Source: Anaerofustis stercorihominis
GTDB taxonomy: Bacteria; Bacillota; Clostridia; Eubacteriales; Anaerofustaceae
Direction of reading: 5' to 3'
DNA: 64,000 nt
Assembly: GCF_024623185.1 (NCBI RefSeq)
Contig: NZ_JANJZK010000004.1
Span: 1-64,000 of the forward strand
Shown: piece by piece, positions 1,401 through 11,413 of the stretch
Position numbering within the stretch: position 1 is the first letter of the stretch
Layout: each line of letters begins with the position of its first letter
The notes under the pieces: generated by a model
Database searches by the model: none
What the model was told of the DNA's origin: nothing
What the model saw: only the letters and a program-made list of their open reading frames with translations
Made by a program: the position numbers and the translations under genes

Positions 1401-3125
1401 TTATTCTTCTTCAGGTTCCTGCAGTGCATCAAAACCTTCTTCGCCTGTCCTGATCTTAACGACATTATCAAGCCCGTAAATAAAGATTTTTCCGTCTCCG
1501 ATATTCCCTGTGTATAAAGCTTTTTTGGCAGCTTCGATAACGGTTCTGACAGGTACGGCTGCAACTACTATCTCTACTTTCAATTTAGGAAGGAGTACCG
1601 CATCTACTTCACTTCCACGATAATAGCTTTTTCTTCCCTTTTGGACACCGCATCCGAGTACATTTGTTACGGTCATACCCGTAACTCCAACTTTTTGCAT
1701 TGCCGCTTTAAGAGAATTAAATTTATCTTTATTTATTACGATTGTGATTTTACTTATACCGGTATCGGTTTTAGTGACTTTAATTTTACTGTCTTTTTCT
1801 TTCAATAAAACATCTTCGATATTTGCCGGAGGAACAGGTTCTGTAACAGAAGCGAGACTGCCTTCATCGTCCAATGAATAATAGAAATCTCCTGCGGGAG
1901 CAAAATCCGCATAAGAACTTACCAATCCGTGCTCGGTTATATCAAGTCCTAAAATTTCTTCTTCTTCACTTGCTCTAAGTCCCACTGTCTTTTGAATAAG
2001 TTTAAAGACAATAAACATAGTAACTAAGACATAAACAGCAACAGAAACAACCCCAAGCAACTGAATTAAAAACATATGAGTTCCACCGCCGTAAAAAAGT
2101 CCGCCGTCCAATGCAAATAATCCTGTAAGTAATGTACCCGTAGCACCGCAGCAGCCATGAACGGCAATAGCTCCGACAGGATCGTCTATCTTAAGTTTAT
2201 GGTCGATAAATTCAACTGCAAATACTACTAAAGTACCTGCAACAGCACCTATAAAGAAAGCACCTACGGGAGAAACCATATCACAGCCCGCTGTAATAGC
2301 GACCAATCCTGCCAAAGCACCGTTAAGTGTCATTGAAACATCAGGTTTTCCGTATCTTACCCATGTAACTATAAGCGTCATTAATGTAGCGGCAGCAGCT
2401 GCCATGTTTGTAGTTACGAATACACTTGAAGCGGATAGCATCGCTTCATCTGTAGACATTGCTACAGTTGAACAACCGTTAAATCCAAACCAACCCATCC
2501 AAAGGATAAATACGCCTAAAGCACCGATTGCAATATTATGTCCGGGAATAGCTTTACTTTTTCCATCTTTATCATACTTTCCAATCCTTGGTCCAAGGAT
2601 TTTAGCTCCTACCAATGCTGCAACTCCGCCGACCATATGTACTGCGGTAGAACCTGCAAAATCATGAAATCCCAACTGACTTAACCAGCCGCCACCCCAA
2701 ATCCAATGTCCTGAAATAGGATAAATAACAGCACTTATAACCGCAGAATAAATAAGATAAGAAATGAATTTTGTTCTTTCAGCCATTGCACCCGAAACGA
2801 TTGTGGCTGCAGTAGCACAAAATACTGTTTGAAAAATCACAAATGCCATTGTGGGAAAGGCACTGTCATAATTACCTCTGATAAAGAAATCTACTTTACC
2901 TATGACGCCCAATATATCAGGTCCCATCATTATCCCGAAACCAATGACCCAATAAATGATTGTACCGAGGACAAAGTCCATCAAGTTTTTCATAATAATA
3001 TTTCCTGCATTTTTAGCTCTGGTAAACCCTGATTCTACCATGGCAAATCCCGCTTGCATCCAAAATACCAGTATAGCTCCAAGCAATACCCAAATGGTAT
3101 CGAGAGCATTAAATGTTGTCTCCAT
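1401..3125 (-). CDS. amt: Ammonium transporter with fused C-terminal PII domain
   Basis: Inner-membrane Amt channel for ammonium (about residues 5-400, eleven expected helices) with both pore histidines, near residue 163 in STAVHMVGG and in AVHGCCGATG about 155 residues later. After a linker, residues from about 455 form a PII (GlnB/GlnK-like) domain, including the T-loop tyrosine in SYYRGSEVD and the GDGKIFI strand. PII is usually a separate protein that plugs Amt; here sensor and channel are one chain. I place the start at the ATG preceded by GGAGG with an eight-base spacer; a TTG five codons upstream overlaps that ribosome site. It lies downstream of glnN behind a terminator that may be regulated. 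Confidence 0.93.
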   Translation of the reverse strand: METTFNALDTIWVLLGAILVFWMQAGFAMVESGFTRAKNAGNIIMKNLMDFVLGTIIYWVIGFGIMMGPDILGVIGKVDFFIRGNYDSAFPTMAFVIFQTVFCATAATIVSGAMAERTKFISYLIYSAVISAVIYPISGHWIWGGGWLSQLGFHDFAGSTAVHMVGGVAALVGAKILGPRIGKYDKDGKSKAIPGHNIAIGALGVFILWMGWFGFNGCSTVAMSTDEAMLSASSVFVTTNMAAAAATLMTLIVTWVRYGKPDVSMTLNGALAGLVAITAGCDMVSPVGAFFIGAVAGTLVVFAVEFIDHKLKIDDPVGAIAVHGCCGATGTLLTGLFALDGGLFYGGGTHMFLIQLLGVVSVAVYVLVTMFIVFKLIQKTVGLRASEEEEILGLDITEHGLVSSYADFAPAGDFYYSLDDEGSLASVTEPVPPANIEDVLLKEKDSKIKVTKTDTGISKITIVINKDKFNSLKAAMQKVGVTGMTVTNVLGCGVQKGRKSYYRGSEVDAVLLPKLKVEIVVAAVPVRTVIEAAKKALYTGNIGDGKIFIYGLDNVVKIRTGEEGFDALQEPEEE

Positions 3126-3160
3126 TTTAATTACCTCCAAATTGTATTGTTAATTTATAT

Positions 3161-3238: not shown

Positions 3239-5323
3239 TTATTTTACACTAAATAAAATTTCTCCGTATGTAGGATATGGCCAAAAATCTCTGTCTACGA
3301 TAGTTTCCAGTTCATCTGCATATTTTCTGACTTCTTCCATATTTTCAAATACATCTTTTCTGAATGACATGGCTCTTTCTTGTACATCTTCGATATTTTC
3401 AGCCTTTTTTAGTCCTTCTTCCAAAGTAGCGATAGCTTTATATAATGAAGCGTTAAGAGAGCTTACTCTCATTACCGTATCTTCTTCAACCGTGCTGTCA
3501 GCCGCAGGACAAACATCTTTCTTAACCGCTAGAGTCTCTGCAACTTCTTTTACGTATGATACACATGAAGGCAAGATTGAAGCTTTTGCCATATCCAGGC
3601 AAGCTTTTGCTTCTATTGAAATTACATTTGAATAATCTTCAAGAAGAACTTCCGTTCTGCTTTCAACTTCTTCTTTTGTAAGAACTTTATGTTTTTCAAA
3701 TAATGAAATATTTTCTTCTCTCTTATAATAAGGGATCGCTTCCGCACAAGTTTTTAAATTAAGTAATTCTCTTTTTTCTGCTTCAACTACCCATTCATCG
3801 GAATATCCGTCACCGTTAAATATAATCCTTTGATGATTCGTAAAAGTATCTTTGATCAACTTCTTAATAGCTTCATCAGAATTGTCTTTTTCAAGGATAT
3901 CAGCAAACTCACAGAAAGCATCGGCAACAATAGTATTAAGCATCATATTTGAACATGCAACCGAATCCTGTGAACCTACCATTCTGAATTCAAATTTGTT
4001 TCCTGTAAATGCAAAAGGTGATGTTCTGTTTCTGTCCGTAGTATCCTTTGTTAAATCGGGAAGGACTGTAGCACCGAGGTTAAATTTAGTTTTTCCTTCA
4101 CTCTTATAATCATTATCTGAGATGATCGCATCTACAACTCCTTTTAAATCATCTCCCAAGAAAATGGATATGATTGCGGGAGGAGCTTCATTCGCACCGA
4201 GTCTATGGTCATTACCTGCACTTGCAACAGAAATCCTAAGCAAATCCTGATGTTCGTCAACGGCTTTAACGACAGCCGCAAGTACTAATAAGAACTGCAT
4301 ATTTTGTTTAGGGTCATTTCCCGGTGATAGCAGATTTTCACCTTCTTTTGTCGTAATAGACCAGTTATTATGTTTACCGCTTCCGTTAATACCTTCAAAT
4401 GGTTTTTCGTGAAGCAAACATACTAAACCATGTCTTTTAGCAACCTTTTTCATTATTTCCATCATTATTTGATTTTGGTCACATGCTATATTCGTAGAAT
4501 TATAAATCGGCGCCAATTCATGCTGTGCAGGAGCAACTTCATTATGTCTTGTTTTGGCAGTTATGCCAAGTTCCCATAAAGTTTCATCCAAGTCCTGCAT
4601 ATATTCCATGATAGGACCTTTTATAGGAGCAAAATAATGGTCATCCATTTCCTGTCCTTTTGGAGTAGGAGCACCGAATAATGTTCTTCCTGTATAAATT
4701 AGGTCAGGTCTGTTTTTATACATTTCTTCGGAAATTATAAAATATTCCTGTTCGGCACCTACAGAAGGATCTGCTCCGGAACATTCTTTACCTAAGAGCT
4801 TGAGGAGTCTTACAACTTGATCGCTTATTGCTTCTATGGATTTAAGCAAAGGTGCCTTTTTATCAAGTACTTCCCCGTTATAAGAACAGAAGATTGCAGG
4901 AATGCACAGCGTATTATCTTTAATAAAAGCATAACTTGTAGGATCCCAAACTGTATACCCTCTGGCTTCATTGGTAGCCCTAAGTCCCCCTGAAGGAAAA
5001 GAAGAAGCGTCCGGTTCATCTTGAAGTAAATCCTTCCCTGAAAGTCTTATTACTACATTATCTCCATGAGGCTCTATAAAAGCATCATGCTTTTCGGCGG
5101 TTAAACTTGTCATAGGCTGGAACCAATGTGTATAATGCGTACATCCGTTTTCCAATGCCCATTCTTTCATCGCATGTGCAACAGCATTTGCAATTGTTAT
5201 ATCAAGGGCTTCACCCTCTTCTATAGTTTTCTTTAATATTTTATATGTATCGTTTGGTAGTTTTTCCTGCATGGTTTCATCATTAAAAACCTTACATCCG
5301 AATAAACTTGCAACTCTATCCAT
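3239..5323 (-). CDS. glnN: Glutamine synthetase type III
   Basis: Forms glutamine from glutamate, ammonium and ATP in the cytosol. At 694 residues it has the large size of the GSIII family (types I and II are about 350-470). Signature segments include RHNEVAPAQHELAP, GSGKHNNWS and NRTSPFAFTGNKFEFR, which supply metal, ATP and glutamate contacts. It is transcribed from its own promoter with a long leader that carries an attenuator-like structure, and is followed by the ammonium transporter. A type I enzyme is also encoded in this window, so the cell has two glutamine synthetases of different families. Confidence 0.95.
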   Translation of the reverse strand: MDRVASLFGCKVFNDETMQEKLPNDTYKILKKTIEEGEALDITIANAVAHAMKEWALENGCTHYTHWFQPMTSLTAEKHDAFIEPHGDNVVIRLSGKDLLQDEPDASSFPSGGLRATNEARGYTVWDPTSYAFIKDNTLCIPAIFCSYNGEVLDKKAPLLKSIEAISDQVVRLLKLLGKECSGADPSVGAEQEYFIISEEMYKNRPDLIYTGRTLFGAPTPKGQEMDDHYFAPIKGPIMEYMQDLDETLWELGITAKTRHNEVAPAQHELAPIYNSTNIACDQNQIMMEIMKKVAKRHGLVCLLHEKPFEGINGSGKHNNWSITTKEGENLLSPGNDPKQNMQFLLVLAAVVKAVDEHQDLLRISVASAGNDHRLGANEAPPAIISIFLGDDLKGVVDAIISDNDYKSEGKTKFNLGATVLPDLTKDTTDRNRTSPFAFTGNKFEFRMVGSQDSVACSNMMLNTIVADAFCEFADILEKDNSDEAIKKLIKDTFTNHQRIIFNGDGYSDEWVVEAEKRELLNLKTCAEAIPYYKREENISLFEKHKVLTKEEVESRTEVLLEDYSNVISIEAKACLDMAKASILPSCVSYVKEVAETLAVKKDVCPAADSTVEEDTVMRVSSLNASLYKAIATLEEGLKKAENIEDVQERAMSFRKDVFENMEEVRKYADELETIVDRDFWPYPTYGEILFSVK

Positions 5324-5501: not shown

Positions 5502-5552
5502 TTAAAAAAGAAAAAGACGCCGTAAGCTTTTTGCCTACAGCGCCGTTGCTGT
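5502..5552 (-). promoter_or_regulatory. glnN leader: ANTAR-type hairpin overlapping a terminator
   Basis: On the minus strand, arms ACAGC and GCTGT enclose the hexaloop AACGGC (5537..5552), which has the A at position 1 and G at position 4 that ANTAR proteins recognise. The right arm overlaps the left arm of a terminator CGCTGTAGGC / GCTTACGGCG (5533..5542 with 5518..5527) that ends in a T-rich tract. The terminator lies about 180 bases before the glnN start codon, inside the leader. This is the layout of antitermination control: ANTAR protein holds the first hairpin and blocks the terminator. Confidence 0.7.
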
Positions 5553-5561
5553 TATGAGTGC

Positions 5562-5590
5562 ATAATACTACGCAAGTTCGTATTTGTCAA
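5562..5590 (-). promoter_or_regulatory. Promoter of glnN
   Basis: Minus-strand TTGACA (5585..5590), a 17-base spacer and TATTAT (5562..5567). Transcription would begin immediately before the ANTAR-type hairpin. Confidence 0.75.
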
Positions 5591-5648: not shown

Positions 5649-5677
5649 TTGATTTTTATTACTTCCGGGTGTATACT
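5649..5677 (+). promoter_or_regulatory. Promoter of the split glutamate synthase operon
   Basis: TTGATT (5649..5654), a 17-base spacer and TATACT (5672..5677). The start would fall about 20 bases before the leader hairpin. Confidence 0.7.
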
Positions 5678-5702: not shown

Positions 5703-5756
5703 GGACAAAGAAGTCCAATGAACATAGATTATATTCTGTGTTTATTGGATTTTTTT
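5703..5756 (+). promoter_or_regulatory. Glutamate synthase leader: ANTAR-type hairpin overlapping a terminator
   Basis: GGAC, hexaloop AAAGAA, GTCC (5703..5716) again gives A1 and G4 in a six-base loop. Its right arm overlaps a 14-pair terminator stem (5714..5727 with 5736..5749, two G-U pairs) followed by seven T. It sits between the promoter and the first gene of the operon, so the gene can only be expressed if this terminator is passed. The hairpin has only four pairs, so it would need protein to compete with the terminator. Confidence 0.7.
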
Positions 5757-5778
5757 ATGTTTTCATGGGGGTGTAAAA

Positions 5779-6885
5779 ATGGTATTTGATGAAAGATATA
5801 AAGAAGGGAATGTAAGGATTCCCTCCGGATGTGCAATAAGCGGTATATTTCATAAAGACGGAAGAAAGACCGATGGAAGAGATATTATAACTTCTATTGA
5901 AGTCATGCATGAAAGAAGCAATGGTTTAGGCGGAGGCTTTGCAGCATATGGGATTTATCCGGAATATAAAGATTATTATGCTTTTCATGTATTCTTTGAT
6001 GACAATATAGCAAGAAAAGAATGCGAGGCATTCTTAGACACTCATTTTGATGTTATTGACTACGGAATAATTCCTACAAGGAAAATAGATAAAATAAAAA
6101 ATGAACCATTGATTTATAGATATTTTTTATTTCCAAAAGAATCAAAATTAAAATCTTCACAATTGGATGAAAAAGAATTCGTAGTCCAAAGTGTAATGAA
6201 TATAAATACAAATATGAAGGGATGTTATGTTTTTTCAAGCGGAAAAAACATGGGATCTTTTAAAGCCGTAGGTTATCCCGAGGATGTCGGAGAATTTTAT
6301 AAACTGGATGACTACAAAGCATATTCATGGACGGCACACGGAAGATATCCGACAAATACACCGGGTTGGTGGGGAGGAGCTCATCCTTTCAGCCTGCTGG
6401 ATTATTCTATAGTACATAACGGAGAAATATCTTCATATGACGCGAACAGAAGATATATTGAAATGTTCGGATATAAATGTAATTTGCTTACAGATACGGA
6501 AGTTATTACATATATGATGGATTATTTATTAAGAAAAAAAGGATTGAACCTTGAAGAAACCGCGGAAATTATAGCTGCACCGTTTTGGAGCACAATCGAA
6601 AGAATGGAAGAAAAAGAAAAAGAAAGATTAACATATCTAAGAACTATGTTTTCAAGCATGTTAATAACAGGGCCTTTTTCTATTATGCTTGGATTTGAAG
6701 GCGGTATCATGGCTCTTAACGACAGACTTAAACTTCGCTCGATGGTAGTTGGAGAAAAAGGTGAAGATGTATATATAGCGAGTGAAGAAAGTGCAATAAA
6801 AATTATACAAAAAGACTTTGATAATATTTATTCTCCTGCCGGCGGAGAAGCCGTAATCGTAAAACTAAATGAGGGGGCTAAATAA
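5779..6885 (+). CDS. Glutamate synthase glutaminase subunit (class II amidotransferase domain)
   Basis: Equivalent to the N-terminal domain of large GltB: it releases ammonia from glutamine for glutamate synthesis. 368 residues. The catalytic Cys is internal, Cys18 in IPSGCAISG, so a 17-residue leader must be removed or the Cys reached in another way, since class II enzymes need an N-terminal Cys. WTAHGRYPTNTPG and SIVHNGEIS are the glutamine-binding segments. GGGGGTG precedes the ATG. It is followed at once by the FMN subunit, an arrangement known from archaeal-type split glutamate synthases. Confidence 0.88.
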   Translation: MVFDERYKEGNVRIPSGCAISGIFHKDGRKTDGRDIITSIEVMHERSNGLGGGFAAYGIYPEYKDYYAFHVFFDDNIARKECEAFLDTHFDVIDYGIIPTRKIDKIKNEPLIYRYFLFPKESKLKSSQLDEKEFVVQSVMNINTNMKGCYVFSSGKNMGSFKAVGYPEDVGEFYKLDDYKAYSWTAHGRYPTNTPGWWGGAHPFSLLDYSIVHNGEISSYDANRRYIEMFGYKCNLLTDTEVITYMMDYLLRKKGLNLEETAEIIAAPFWSTIERMEEKEKERLTYLRTMFSSMLITGPFSIMLGFEGGIMALNDRLKLRSMVVGEKGEDVYIASEESAIKIIQKDFDNIYSPAGGEAVIVKLNEGAK

Positions 6886-6886
6886 A

Positions 6887-8392
6887 ATGAGAATTAATTT
6901 TATACATCCACAGTTTGAAGTGGTAAGAAATCAAGATAGATGTATACAGTGCAGAGTTTGCGAACGTCAATGCGCAAACGAAGTTCATTTTTACGATGAA
7001 GACAGCAAGTTAATGTTAAGCGACGAAACAAACTGTGTTGCTTGTCACAGATGTGTTTCTCTGTGCCCTACAAAGGCTTTAAAAATAGTTGAAAGCGATC
7101 ATACTTTTAAGCCACATGCAAACTGGACGGGAGAACAAATAGAAAATATTTACAGACAAGCCGAAAGCGGAGGAGTTCTTCTTGCCTCAATGGGAAACCC
7201 CAAAAGCTATCCTATTTATTTTGATAAAATGCTGATTAACGCATCTCAGGTTACTAATCCTTCCATTGACCCTTTAAGAGAACCTATGGAAACAAAAGTA
7301 AGCCTTGGAAAGAAAAATGTAAAAATAAAAAGAGATAAAAACGGAAATATAATTCCCGATATTCCTCCTCAAATAAAACTTAATGTACCAATAATGTTTT
7401 CTGCCATGTCATATGGTTCAATAAGCTATAATGCTCATGAAAGTTTAGCAAGAGCGGCAAGCGAGCTGGGAATAATGTATAACACAGGTGAAGGCGGACT
7501 TCATGAAGATTTTTATAAATATGGTAAGAATACTATAGTACAAGTAGCTTCGGGAAGATTTGGTGTTCATAAAGACTTTTTAAACATAGGTGCAGCAATA
7601 GAAATAAAAATGGGACAAGGTGCTAAACCGGGTATCGGAGGACATCTTCCGGGAGAAAAAATAGGTCCGGATATTTCAAAAACCAGAATGATACCCGAGG
7701 GAAGCGACGCTATAAGCCCCGCACCTCATCATGATATATATTCCATAGAAGATTTAAGACAGCTTGTATTATCCCTTAAGGAAGCGACAAATTATGAAAA
7801 GCCGGTATTAGTAAAAATCGCCGCCGTACATAATGTGGCTGCAATAGCAAGCGGAGTTGCAAGAAGCGGAGCGGACATAATCGCAATAGACGGTTTCAGA
7901 GGAGGAACAGGAGCTGCTCCTACAAGGATAAGAGATAATGTAGGTATACCTATTGAACTCGCTCTTGCAAGCGTAGATTCAAGACTTAGAAACGAAGGTA
8001 TAAGAAACAATGTTTCACTTGTAGTGGGAGGAAGTATAAGAAGCAGTGCAGATGTCGTAAAATCAATAGCACTCGGTGCCGACTGTGTATACATTGCAAC
8101 ATCAGCCTTAATGGCTCTTGGATGTCATTTATGCAGAAACTGCCACAGTGGTAAATGCAACTGGGGTATCGCCACTCAACGCCCCGATTTAGTAAAAAGA
8201 TTAAATCCGGATATAGGATATAAAAGAGTAGTTAATTTGGTTACCGCCTGGGAACATGAAATAAAAGAGATGATGGGCGGAATGGGTATTAACTCAATCG
8301 AAGCATTAAAAGGAAACAGATTAATGCTGAGAGGCGTAGGACTTAATGAAAAAGAACTTGAAATACTTGGAATTAAACATGCGGGAGAATAA
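6887..8392 (+). CDS. Glutamate synthase FMN subunit with N-terminal ferredoxin domain
   Basis: Catalytic core of glutamate synthase: reductive transfer of ammonia to 2-oxoglutarate on FMN. Residues 19-60 carry two 4Fe-4S motifs (Cys19, 22, 25, 29 and Cys50, 53, 56, 60). The central region is the FMN-binding barrel (AMSYGSIS, GAKPGIGGHLPG, GFRGGTGAAPTR). Near the end CHLCRNCHSGKC (413-424) is the iron-sulfur segment of GltB. I start at the ATG six codons inside the longest frame because GAGGGGG lies correctly before it. No GltD-type NADPH subunit is encoded here, so reduced ferredoxin may be the donor, or GltD lies elsewhere. Confidence 0.9.
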   Translation: MRINFIHPQFEVVRNQDRCIQCRVCERQCANEVHFYDEDSKLMLSDETNCVACHRCVSLCPTKALKIVESDHTFKPHANWTGEQIENIYRQAESGGVLLASMGNPKSYPIYFDKMLINASQVTNPSIDPLREPMETKVSLGKKNVKIKRDKNGNIIPDIPPQIKLNVPIMFSAMSYGSISYNAHESLARAASELGIMYNTGEGGLHEDFYKYGKNTIVQVASGRFGVHKDFLNIGAAIEIKMGQGAKPGIGGHLPGEKIGPDISKTRMIPEGSDAISPAPHHDIYSIEDLRQLVLSLKEATNYEKPVLVKIAAVHNVAAIASGVARSGADIIAIDGFRGGTGAAPTRIRDNVGIPIELALASVDSRLRNEGIRNNVSLVVGGSIRSSADVVKSIALGADCVYIATSALMALGCHLCRNCHSGKCNWGIATQRPDLVKRLNPDIGYKRVVNLVTAWEHEIKEMMGGMGINSIEALKGNRLMLRGVGLNEKELEILGIKHAGE

Positions 8393-8767
8393 AAGAAAAG
8401 TATATATAATAAAAAATTGTGCATTGAATACCTTATATGTGAATATAACTATTCTATTATAAATAGTAATAAAGTCTAATAAAGTACGTCCTTAAAGACA
8501 AAAGATGTGCAAAATATCGGATAAGAAAAAATCAAATAATAACATAGCACCAATAAATTTTTTTGTATTGGGGTCTACATATGATAATAAAGTAAAATTA
8601 TGATAGAGAAAAATATATTATTACTGGAGATATAAACAAATCGGGAATATATACATATTTAATCAGATAAAAAATAAAATTAAAGGATTTTGGTTTAATA
8701 AAAGATAATCCCGGACTTATGACATTTTAAAAGAATACAGAAAATCTACTCTGGGAGGGAAAAAATT
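8393..8767 (+). other. 375-base gap between glutamate synthase genes, possible gene remnant
   Basis: No intact gene. From about 8600 one plus-strand frame reads a protein-like stretch containing ITGDINKSGIYTYLIR, then a TAA, then a further 18 sense codons before another stop. This looks like a decayed coding fragment, but I cannot assign a family. No clear terminator and no ANTAR-type hexaloop hairpin were seen, so the genes on either side may still be co-transcribed. A GGGAGGG ribosome site for the next gene lies at the right end. Confidence 0.4.
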
Positions 8768-9502
8768 ATGATGGAAATAAATGCAAAAGGACTTGAACAT
8801 AGAGAAATAAATTTGGAAATAAAAGCATGTGCCATAAAAGAAAGGGATATTACCGTAAAGGAAGTAATGGGACAAAGATTTATCGGTTCTGCCCTATCTA
8901 AAACAAATCTTATAATAAACGGAGTTCCCGGTAATGCTGTGGGAGCATATCTTGACGGCGCTAAAATCACCATAAACGAAAATGCACAGGACGCTACCGG
9001 AGATACAATGAACGACGGAGAAATCATAATCCACGGCTCAAGCGGAGATGCTACGGGATATGCAATGAGAGGCGGAACTATATATATTAAAGGTGACGTC
9101 GGGTACAGAGCAGGAATTCATATGAAAGCTTATAAGGATAAAAAACCCACTATAGTAATCGGAGGAAAAACCGGTTCATTCCTCGGAGAATATCAAGCTG
9201 GAGGAAATATCATAGTTCTTGGATTAGGATATGAAAACAAAGAAATCCCATTGGGACATTTTTGTGCAACGGGAATGCACGGAGGAAAAATATTTTTAAG
9301 AACGAAATATCCGCCCAAAATAGAAACTGATAAATTGATTATTAAAGAAGCGGACGCTGAAGATATAGATGAAATCAAAGAATATATAAAAAAATTCAGT
9401 TCTTACTTTAACAAAGATTATGATAAAATAGTTAATAGTAAGTATTATGTAATAATACCTAATACAAAAAGTCCTTACAAACAATTATACACTAATCATT
9501 AG
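8768..9502 (+). CDS. Glutamate synthase GXGXG-domain subunit
   Basis: Corresponds to the C-terminal right-handed beta-helix domain of large GltB, which packs against the FMN core and has a structural role in ammonia channelling. 244 residues; turns of the helix show as repeated glycines (GVPGNAVGAYLDGA, GSSGDATGYAMRGG, GDVGYRAGIHMKA). About 60 residues after the helix are acidic and lysine-rich. The start has two consecutive ATG codons; the first is 9 bases from GGGAGG. Only 12 bases separate it from glnA, so glutamate and glutamine synthesis are coupled in one operon. Confidence 0.85.
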   Translation: MMEINAKGLEHREINLEIKACAIKERDITVKEVMGQRFIGSALSKTNLIINGVPGNAVGAYLDGAKITINENAQDATGDTMNDGEIIIHGSSGDATGYAMRGGTIYIKGDVGYRAGIHMKAYKDKKPTIVIGGKTGSFLGEYQAGGNIIVLGLGYENKEIPLGHFCATGMHGGKIFLRTKYPPKIETDKLIIKEADAEDIDEIKEYIKKFSSYFNKDYDKIVNSKYYVIIPNTKSPYKQLYTNH

Positions 9503-9514
9503 GAGGAGTAGTAT

Positions 9515-10810
9515 ATGAACAGTATAACAAGGGAAGTAATCAATTTTGTCAGAGAAAATGATATAAAATTTATTCGACTAGCATTCTGTGACATCTTTGG
9601 TGTACAAAAAAATATAGCTATAATGTCAGACGAACTTGAAAATGCCTTTGAAAATGGAATTTCTTTTGATGGATTTTCGATTGACGGATTTTTAAATGAC
9701 AAAAGCAGTCATCTTCTGCTTTACCCCGATCCGTCTACACTATCCATATTACCATGGAGACCTTCGGAAGGAAGAGTTGCAAGATTTTTTTGTGACGTCA
9801 AATATCCAACAAAAGAATTATTTGATAATGACTCAAGGTATATTCTAAAAAAAGCAATCAATAAAGCAAAAGATATGGGATATCTGGCTAAAATAGGAGC
9901 GGAATGCGAATTTTATATCTTCGAAACCGATGAAGAAGGACATCCCACTATGATACCTTATGACGAAGGCGGATATTTTGATGTTTCTCCTTTAGACAAA
10001 GGTGAAAATATACGTAGAGAGATTTGTCTCACACTGGAACAAATGGGTATTACTCCAATAAGCTCTTATCATGAGAGAGGTCCGGGACAACATAGAATTA
10101 AATTCAGATACGGAGATCCGCTGACGGCAGCAGATGATTTTATTACATTTAAATGGATTGTAAAATCAATCGCAAATAAAAACGGAGGTTATGCGACATT
10201 TATGCCAAAACCTCTAAAGGAACTATATGGCAGCGGACTTCATGTGAGTCTTCTATTATTTAAAGAAGGTAAAAATATATTATCTGAAGGTCTTGATAAA
10301 TCAAGTGAAGCTAAATCTTTTATAGCAGGAATAATGAATAGGATAAACGAAATTACCGCTATATTAAACCCAACTAGGAATTCATATAAAAGATTCGGAG
10401 AATTTCATGCACCTAAATATATTACTTGGTCAGAAAAAAATCCAAATACTTTGATAAAAGTTACTACATTCAATAAAGATAAAGCAAAATTTAAATTAAG
10501 GTCTGTAGACCCAACAACCAATCCATACCTTGCTTTTGCCTTGATTTTACTTGCAGGTTTAAAAGGTATAGAAAACAAAGAAAAAATAGATGATAAAGCA
10601 AATATTAAATCTATAATGGAAGAAGATATACCGACCGGAGTAAATATGCTTCCGCAAAACTTTAAGAGTGCTTTAAAGATATTTGAAAAAAGTGCATTTG
10701 CTGAGAAATGCTTAGGAAAAAATTTAGTTTATAACTTTATTGAGAAAAGAAAAAAAGATTTAAAAATTGACGAAGATATTCAAGAGCTTAAATACTTTTT
10801 AATGGATTAA
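9515..10810 (+). CDS. glnA: Glutamine synthetase type I
   Basis: Dodecameric cytosolic ATP-dependent glutamine synthetase, 431 residues, matching the short GSI-alpha form of Gram-positive bacteria. Visible segments: DIFGVQKN near the N-terminus, GAECEFYIF (metal-binding Glu), GPGQHRIKF, GSGLHVSL (ATP site) and RNSYKRFGEFHAPKYITW (glutamate site). The adenylylation segment of the beta form is not evident. AGGAGG seven bases before the ATG fixes the start. It follows the GXGXG subunit and precedes the ANTAR regulator, an order resembling clostridial glnA-nitR loci. Confidence 0.93.
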   Translation: MNSITREVINFVRENDIKFIRLAFCDIFGVQKNIAIMSDELENAFENGISFDGFSIDGFLNDKSSHLLLYPDPSTLSILPWRPSEGRVARFFCDVKYPTKELFDNDSRYILKKAINKAKDMGYLAKIGAECEFYIFETDEEGHPTMIPYDEGGYFDVSPLDKGENIRREICLTLEQMGITPISSYHERGPGQHRIKFRYGDPLTAADDFITFKWIVKSIANKNGGYATFMPKPLKELYGSGLHVSLLLFKEGKNILSEGLDKSSEAKSFIAGIMNRINEITAILNPTRNSYKRFGEFHAPKYITWSEKNPNTLIKVTTFNKDKAKFKLRSVDPTTNPYLAFALILLAGLKGIENKEKIDDKANIKSIMEEDIPTGVNMLPQNFKSALKIFEKSAFAEKCLGKNLVYNFIEKRKKDLKIDEDIQELKYFLMD

Positions 10811-10843: not shown

Positions 10844-11413
10844 TTGGAAAAAGTATTGATAGTATCCGCAAATGAAAAATCAAAAGATACACTATGCGAA
10901 TTATTAAAAGAATATAATAATATCCAAATAGTTACCACGACTTCCGCGGCAAAAGCAAGAAGATATGCCGCAAATAATGAATTGTCAATTGCCATAATCA
11001 ACACTCCGCTGAGAGAAGAATTCGGTACCGAACTTAGTATAGACCTATCAAGGTTAAATATAGGAACGTTATTGCTGGTTAAAAGCGATATTGCAGAGGA
11101 AATTAGAGCAGATGTAGAAAGCTTCGGAGTACTAATCATATCTAAACCTGTTATAAAATCTCTTTTTTATCAATCACTTAGACTGCAAATGTCAGTGAAA
11201 AACAGACTTATTTCTTTAAAAAAGGAAAATGAGCAGCTTAAAAATAAAATAGAAGAAATTAAAATCGTGGATAGAGCTAAACTCATACTAATAGAAAATG
11301 AGCATTTAAATGAAAATGAAGCACATAAGTACATAGAAAAAGAAGCTATGAACCGCAGATTAAATAGATATGATATAGCAAAGGAAATACTTGATAAGTA
11401 TAATATTTCTTGA
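10844..11413 (+). CDS. ANTAR-domain RNA-binding antiterminator with pseudo-receiver (NitR-like)
   Basis: Residues 1-115 fold like a response-regulator receiver, but the acidic pair is replaced (VLIVSANEK instead of VDDE) and the phospho-acceptor position reads IINTPL, with Asn where Asp is expected; the late Lys (SKPV) remains. A coiled coil (LKKENEQLKNKIEEI) leads into a C-terminal ANTAR domain of about 55 residues (AKLILIEN, EAHKYIEKEAM, IAKEIL). ANTAR proteins bind paired hexaloop hairpins and stop terminator formation. Start is TTG after AAGGGGG. Downstream of glnA and with candidate targets in the same island, it most likely controls nitrogen assimilation; without the Asp, the trigger is probably not phosphorylation. 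Confidence 0.88.
   Translation: MEKVLIVSANEKSKDTLCELLKEYNNIQIVTTTSAAKARRYAANNELSIAIINTPLREEFGTELSIDLSRLNIGTLLLVKSDIAEEIRADVESFGVLIISKPVIKSLFYQSLRLQMSVKNRLISLKKENEQLKNKIEEIKIVDRAKLILIENEHLNENEAHKYIEKEAMNRRLNRYDIAKEILDKYNIS

Follow-up and report, generated by a model that had tools for sequence, protein, structure and literature searches.

In the EutV system, both of the A1/G4 hexaloops in the leader are required for antitermination (PMC3369931, PMC8934654). The EutV structure paper cut the binding motif to one hexaloop, but two were still needed for antitermination, and the question of how large a part single-hexaloop motifs play was posed in the same work (PMC8934654). ANTAR attenuators in front of bacterial nitrogen genes are known, for example before glutamate synthase in Desulfotomaculum (Ramesh 2012, PMC3369931), and according to a review (PMC6316151, citing Stutz 2007), the ANTAR-family protein NitR uses antitermination to induce GS/GOGAT genes in Clostridium saccharobutylicum when nitrogen is limiting. 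No description of a naturally single-hexaloop attenuator was found in the literature searched, which covered few subscription papers. The glnN leader described here is probably such a case, an attenuator that needs just one hexaloop and answers to the ANTAR protein whose gene lies beside glnA.

The locus lies in the window, the 64-kb stretch of DNA that was analysed, in which the proposed controlled gene, glnN (type III glutamine synthetase, PF12437), occupies positions 3239–5323 of the minus strand. A predicted promoter, TTGACA-17-TATTAT, is found on the same strand at 5590–5562, with the −35 box at 5590–5585, the −10 box at 5567–5562 and a 17-nt spacer, placing the predicted RNA start at about 5555; the same promoter spacing was found at loci L046, L047 and L080. 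Separated from the −10 box by 9 nt is a single P2-like hairpin, ACAGC-AACGGC-GCTGT (5552–5537, minus strand), in which five Watson–Crick pairs enclose a six-base loop with A1 and G4. The right arm of this hairpin is included in the left arm of an intrinsic terminator with a T run (5544–5504, minus strand; stem 5544–5516), of the form GGCGCTGTAGGC-AAAAA-GCTTACGGCGTC, with 12 pairs and about −19 kcal/mol, then TTTTTCTTTTTT, and the two structures are mutually exclusive. An earlier, sequence-only reading of this DNA had named the promoter, the perfect five-pair stem with its A1/G4 loop and the arm shared with the terminator, and all of these are present as described; the terminator is also where that reading expected one, but it ends 192 nt before glnN and not 180. 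When the RNA was folded step by step, with 5555 taken as its start, the hexaloop hairpin was optimal at RNA lengths of 18–30 nt and was displaced by 36 nt. An Rfam scan of the window gave no family at gathering score, and a loose E-value gave chance-level matches only.

The candidate regulator is an ANTAR protein encoded at 10844–11413 (plus strand), directly downstream of the type I glutamine synthetase gene glnA (9515–10810, plus strand; PF00120/PF03951), in agreement with the earlier claim that an ANTAR regulator stands beside glnA. Its ANTAR domain exceeds the curated cut-off (PF03861, 56.7 bits), it was the only ANTAR gene found in the genome (2.07 Mb, 92%-complete), and glnA lies directly upstream of the ANTAR gene in 36 of 38 related loci. 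We take NitR to be glnA-linked in the same way. The predicted structure of the protein is confident (pLDDT 92.9), with the coiled coil and the receiver-like fold present, and the structure nearest to this predicted model by TM-score is RNA-bound EutV (6ww6, TM 0.81). The receiver-like domain has Asn in place of the phosphorylatable Asp, and phosphorylation is therefore unlikely as the signal. When the protein was compared with the RNA contacts listed for EutV in PMC8934654, Lys143, Lys149, Glu160, Met172, Asn173 and Arg175 were retained and five others were altered (Arg142 to Ile, Lys147 to Arg, Tyr164 to His, Arg168 to Glu and Arg177 to Asn); the changes at Arg142, Tyr164 and Arg168, which are Ile, His and Glu here, count against reading the leader as an ANTAR attenuator.

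Two further leaders of this kind, both absent from the earlier reading, were found at the locus. Divergent from glnN, the glutamate synthase-like genes (5779–9502, plus strand, with the amidotransferase at 5779–6885, the FMN domain at 6869–8392 and the GXGXG domain at 8768–9502) share an operon with glnA and the ANTAR gene, and the leader of this operon has a second single hexaloop hairpin, GGAC-AAAGAA-GTCC (5703–5716, plus strand), with orthologues in L140–L142. This hairpin is overlapped by a terminator with a T run (5710–5760, plus strand; stem 5710–5753), and a weak promoter-like site, TTGATT-17-TATACT, with only 9 of 12 matches, is located at 5649–5677 on the plus strand. The third leader belongs to amt, which encodes an ammonium transporter fused to a P-II domain (1401–3140, minus strand; PF00909 and PF00543); it contains the hexaloop hairpin ACAC-GAAGGC-GTGT (3211–3198, minus strand), a G1 variant, and an overlapping terminator (3207–3163, minus strand). 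At loop position 1, the amt hexaloop has G here and in G002 and A in G001 and G009 (AAAGGC), providing a natural A1 variant.

Bare A1/G4 hexaloops with at least four pairs are common in the 64 kb (76 + 105), and the hairpin alone therefore proves little. Among 78 terminator-like hairpins in the window, the left arm is also part of a stable hexaloop hairpin of any kind in nine and of an A1/G4 one in only two, these two being the glnN leader and the leader of the divergent glutamate synthase–glnA–ANTAR operon. In 95 upstream regions of glnN, amt and gltS genes, there were 55 A1/G4 hexaloop–terminator overlaps, as opposed to 3.4 in dinucleotide-shuffled sequence and at most 15 for each of the other letter pairs. 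The automatic site finder returned nothing for many amt genes and some gltS loci, in some of which the start codon or the terminator had been misplaced.

The same arrangement recurs before glnN in the genus's two remaining species and, across the order, in the majority of glnN leaders, and in relatives the element is often also found before gltS-like and amt genes, the conserved loop before these three kinds of gene being C-AAnGGn-G. The closing C-G pair and the loop bases A2 and G4 do not vary among 49 distinct hairpins, and A1 hardly varies; G4 and G5 are also paired in the terminator, so their conservation does not come from the protein alone. The hexaloop stem was 89.7% paired, compared to 64.5% when shuffled and 30–50% in slid versions, and the terminator helix, which uses the same strand, was 82.4% paired, compared to 64.9% when shuffled, all of these percentages being inflated, least for the two outer pairs, by the choice of alignment rows according to hairpin criteria. 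Double-sided changes numbered 79 versus 26 for the hexaloop stem and 68 versus 27 for the terminator helix. Such covariation of two exclusive helices on one strand is what should be seen if the leader is a switch.

A covariance model consisting of the hexaloop plus the terminator, with nothing upstream of the hexaloop, gave three convincing matches when run on this genome. They all lie at the present locus and belong to the training set of the model, and so match by construction. Sites on which it had not been trained were also recovered, for example before the second amt in G001 (41 bits). Within the order, the element stands before a glnN copy in 35 of 38 ANTAR-encoding genomes versus 1 of 7 ANTAR-less genomes (p = 7e-5), or, by genus, in 12 of 15 versus 0 of 5 (p = 0.004), with p-values that are optimistic since these genomes, which were counted by hand, are related to each other. 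The search was extended to the class with 196 genomes of Clostridia, the training genomes being left out of the co-occurrence test, and an ANTAR gene was present in 40 of 42 genomes with an inspected hexaloop-bearing match versus 54 of 148 others (p = 1e-12). The hexaloop was missing from 7 of 69 model matches, and four of those seven were in ANTAR-less genomes. Three genomes (G020, G098 and G102) carry the element, and no ANTAR gene was found in them. Comparison, or inspection of the translations by eye, showed that the class-wide matches are followed mainly by amt, glnN, gltS-like, glnA and gltB-like genes, the gltB-like ones being assigned by eye. The earlier proposal that the hairpin is an ANTAR element is thus supported by the conserved A1/G4 loop, by covariation in both exclusive helices, by recurrence before nitrogen-assimilation genes and by co-occurrence with ANTAR proteins. 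Matches were also seen at L290, L231, L281 and L303 before gatC-, asnA- and asnB-like genes (likewise assigned by eye from translations), which, if they are real targets, would extend the regulon to amide transfer.

No second A1/G4 hexaloop was found within 60 nt upstream of the glnN-leader hexaloop in this genome, and over the same distance one was absent from 68 of 75 leaders and present in seven (1.5 expected by chance). Of those seven, L066 and L067 (family f5) are clearly dual leaders of the canonical type, a matching hexaloop lies 50 nt upstream in L150, and the rest are either complete attenuators in tandem or matches probably due to chance. For the class-wide hexaloop-bearing matches, a second hexaloop within 80 nt upstream was present in 7 of 62 and absent from 55, and the model does not select against a second hexaloop because it holds nothing upstream of the first one that it matches. 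Only a minority of leaders have the canonical two hexaloops. The glnN hexaloop of this genus begins about 2–5 nt from the predicted RNA start, 9–10 nt past a near-perfect −10 box, and a first hairpin would not fit before it, provided that the predicted start is correct. For well-scoring promoters, the distance from the −10 box to the hexaloop clusters at 7–12 nt, where this genus and others are found together with the first of the two hexaloops in a true dual leader, and at 32–41 nt, which comprises family f3 and the second hexaloop of that dual leader, with five in between. The suggestion that only one hairpin is clear and that the leader may be a reduced form is supported by the lack of a second hexaloop, by the lack of room at the predicted start and by the same condition in most relatives.

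Several candidates considered along the way were rejected. A possible first hexaloop in the spacer between the −35 and −10 boxes, TACG-AACTTG-CGTA, lies upstream of the predicted start, has T at loop position 4 and has a stem that is not kept in L046, and a possible first hairpin before amt, TTTATTT-AGTGTA-AAATAAG, is composed almost only of A and T, sits at the glnN stop codon and was not flagged in G002. A link between the single hexaloop and an ANTAR subtype (Ile142/His164/Glu168, pseudo-receiver) fails in G016 and G024, which combine an EutV-type protein with a single glnN leader, and it also fails class-wide, where both types occur. Other leader architectures were seen as well. Family f3 glnN leaders (L081–L103 and L105–L107) often keep an upstream hairpin about 13–16 nt before the hexaloop, with variable loops that lack A1/G4. 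In G029, the single promoter of an amt leader (L130, 1150–1500) is followed by four consecutive hexaloop-plus-terminator modules, and a second amt is preceded by two further ones, which we read as a multi-step attenuator. The dual leader L073 (G027) has GGGC-ATTGTC-GCCT as its first hexaloop and a second loop of five bases (GAAC-ATAGC-GTTC).

Given that EutV needs both hexaloops, that family f3 leaders retain an upstream hairpin and that the glnN promoter is a prediction, the leader could belong to the ordinary two-site ANTAR RNAs, with a first site that went unrecognised, either because its hairpin has another loop or because the RNA is longer and starts at a promoter further upstream. We regard this as unlikely, since the hexaloop follows closely on the −10 box, a placement kept in several genera, since no A1/G4 hairpin lies in the 60 nt upstream, and since amt sites within operons (L112 and L199) also have just one hexaloop. 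It is a good deal less probable that this is a plain terminator or attenuator answering to something else, in which the hexaloop is a by-product of an A-tract next to a G+C-rich terminator arm: AAAGGC...GCCTTT is a common terminator form, G4 and G5 have partners in the terminator and some model matches do without the hexaloop, but the 5′ arm of the hairpin is outside the terminator and still covaries with the right arm, such a hexaloop is rare among the terminators of the window, and the genomes that carry it encode ANTAR.

The glnN RNA and the RNA of the divergent operon have predicted starts that lie about 130 bp from each other, and they carry one hexaloop each, an arrangement in which an ANTAR dimer might bind in trans to a hexaloop on both nascent divergent RNAs (glnN and glutamate synthase) and so couple both operons; single hexaloops also occur at lone sites, namely at an amt inside an operon (L112) and at the second amt in G001 (L194), and this makes the idea highly improbable. 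Least credible to us is that the short RNA made by termination is the functional molecule and, as a small RNA, titrates the ANTAR protein, as proposed for EutX, which has been discussed as a sequestering RNA (PMC8934654). Termination would indeed yield an RNA of about 45–50 nt with the hexaloop sequence, but in step-wise folding the terminated RNA adopts the terminator with the hexaloop hidden, and the element repeatedly precedes nitrogen genes.

Under the single-hexaloop attenuator that we favour, the glnN RNA would start with the five-pair hairpin and its A1/G4 six-base loop, and by default the stronger terminator would take the right arm of the hairpin and displace it, stopping transcription about 190 nt before glnN. 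An active ANTAR dimer, probably under nitrogen limitation, would hold the hexaloop hairpin, the terminator would not form and glnN would be read. The divergent glutamate synthase–glnA–ANTAR operon would be controlled likewise, and the regulator would therefore also control its own gene, giving a circuit that feeds back on itself because the ANTAR gene would lie behind one of its own switches. Nitrogen limitation as the signal is suggested by analogy with NitR, as far as the review reports it (PMC6316151), and our guess from gene order is that GlnA or a P-II protein could be the sensor partner. A 5′-terminal hexaloop may also make a recruiting hairpin unnecessary, as it would fold as soon as the RNA leaves the polymerase.

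Beyond this locus, we lean towards the broader view that ANTAR antitermination can work with a single hexaloop, that this is the usual arrangement in Clostridia, and that the two-hexaloop rule of EutV, NasR and AmiR is a special case upheld by two-hairpin searches. If this is true, the recruiting-hairpin step is dispensable, and ANTAR regulon lists that required two hairpins miss many targets. For Clostridia, these results offer an answer to the question posed in PMC8934654, in that single-hexaloop attenuators appear to be common and to precede central nitrogen genes. Natural examples are now at hand for testing the accepted two-hairpin rule, and the single and dual glnN leaders that occur within one order are ready-made test pairs.

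Like the eut/EutV, nasF/NasR and amiE/AmiR systems (PMC3369931, PMC8934654), the glnN leader has an A1/G4 hexaloop in a hairpin whose right arm serves as the left arm of a terminator, an ANTAR protein is encoded in the genome and the targets are nitrogen-related. Unlike these systems, it has one hexaloop and not two, placed at the extreme 5′ terminus of the RNA as predicted, and no recruiting hairpin. The ANTAR gene proposed here to control the GS/GOGAT cluster resembles NitR, as the latter is portrayed in the review (PMC6316151). The motifs of Ramesh 2012 (PMC3369931) likewise place bacterial nitrogen genes under predicted ANTAR-type attenuation, but that search required two hexaloops, in contrast to the leaders described here, and would therefore miss single ones.
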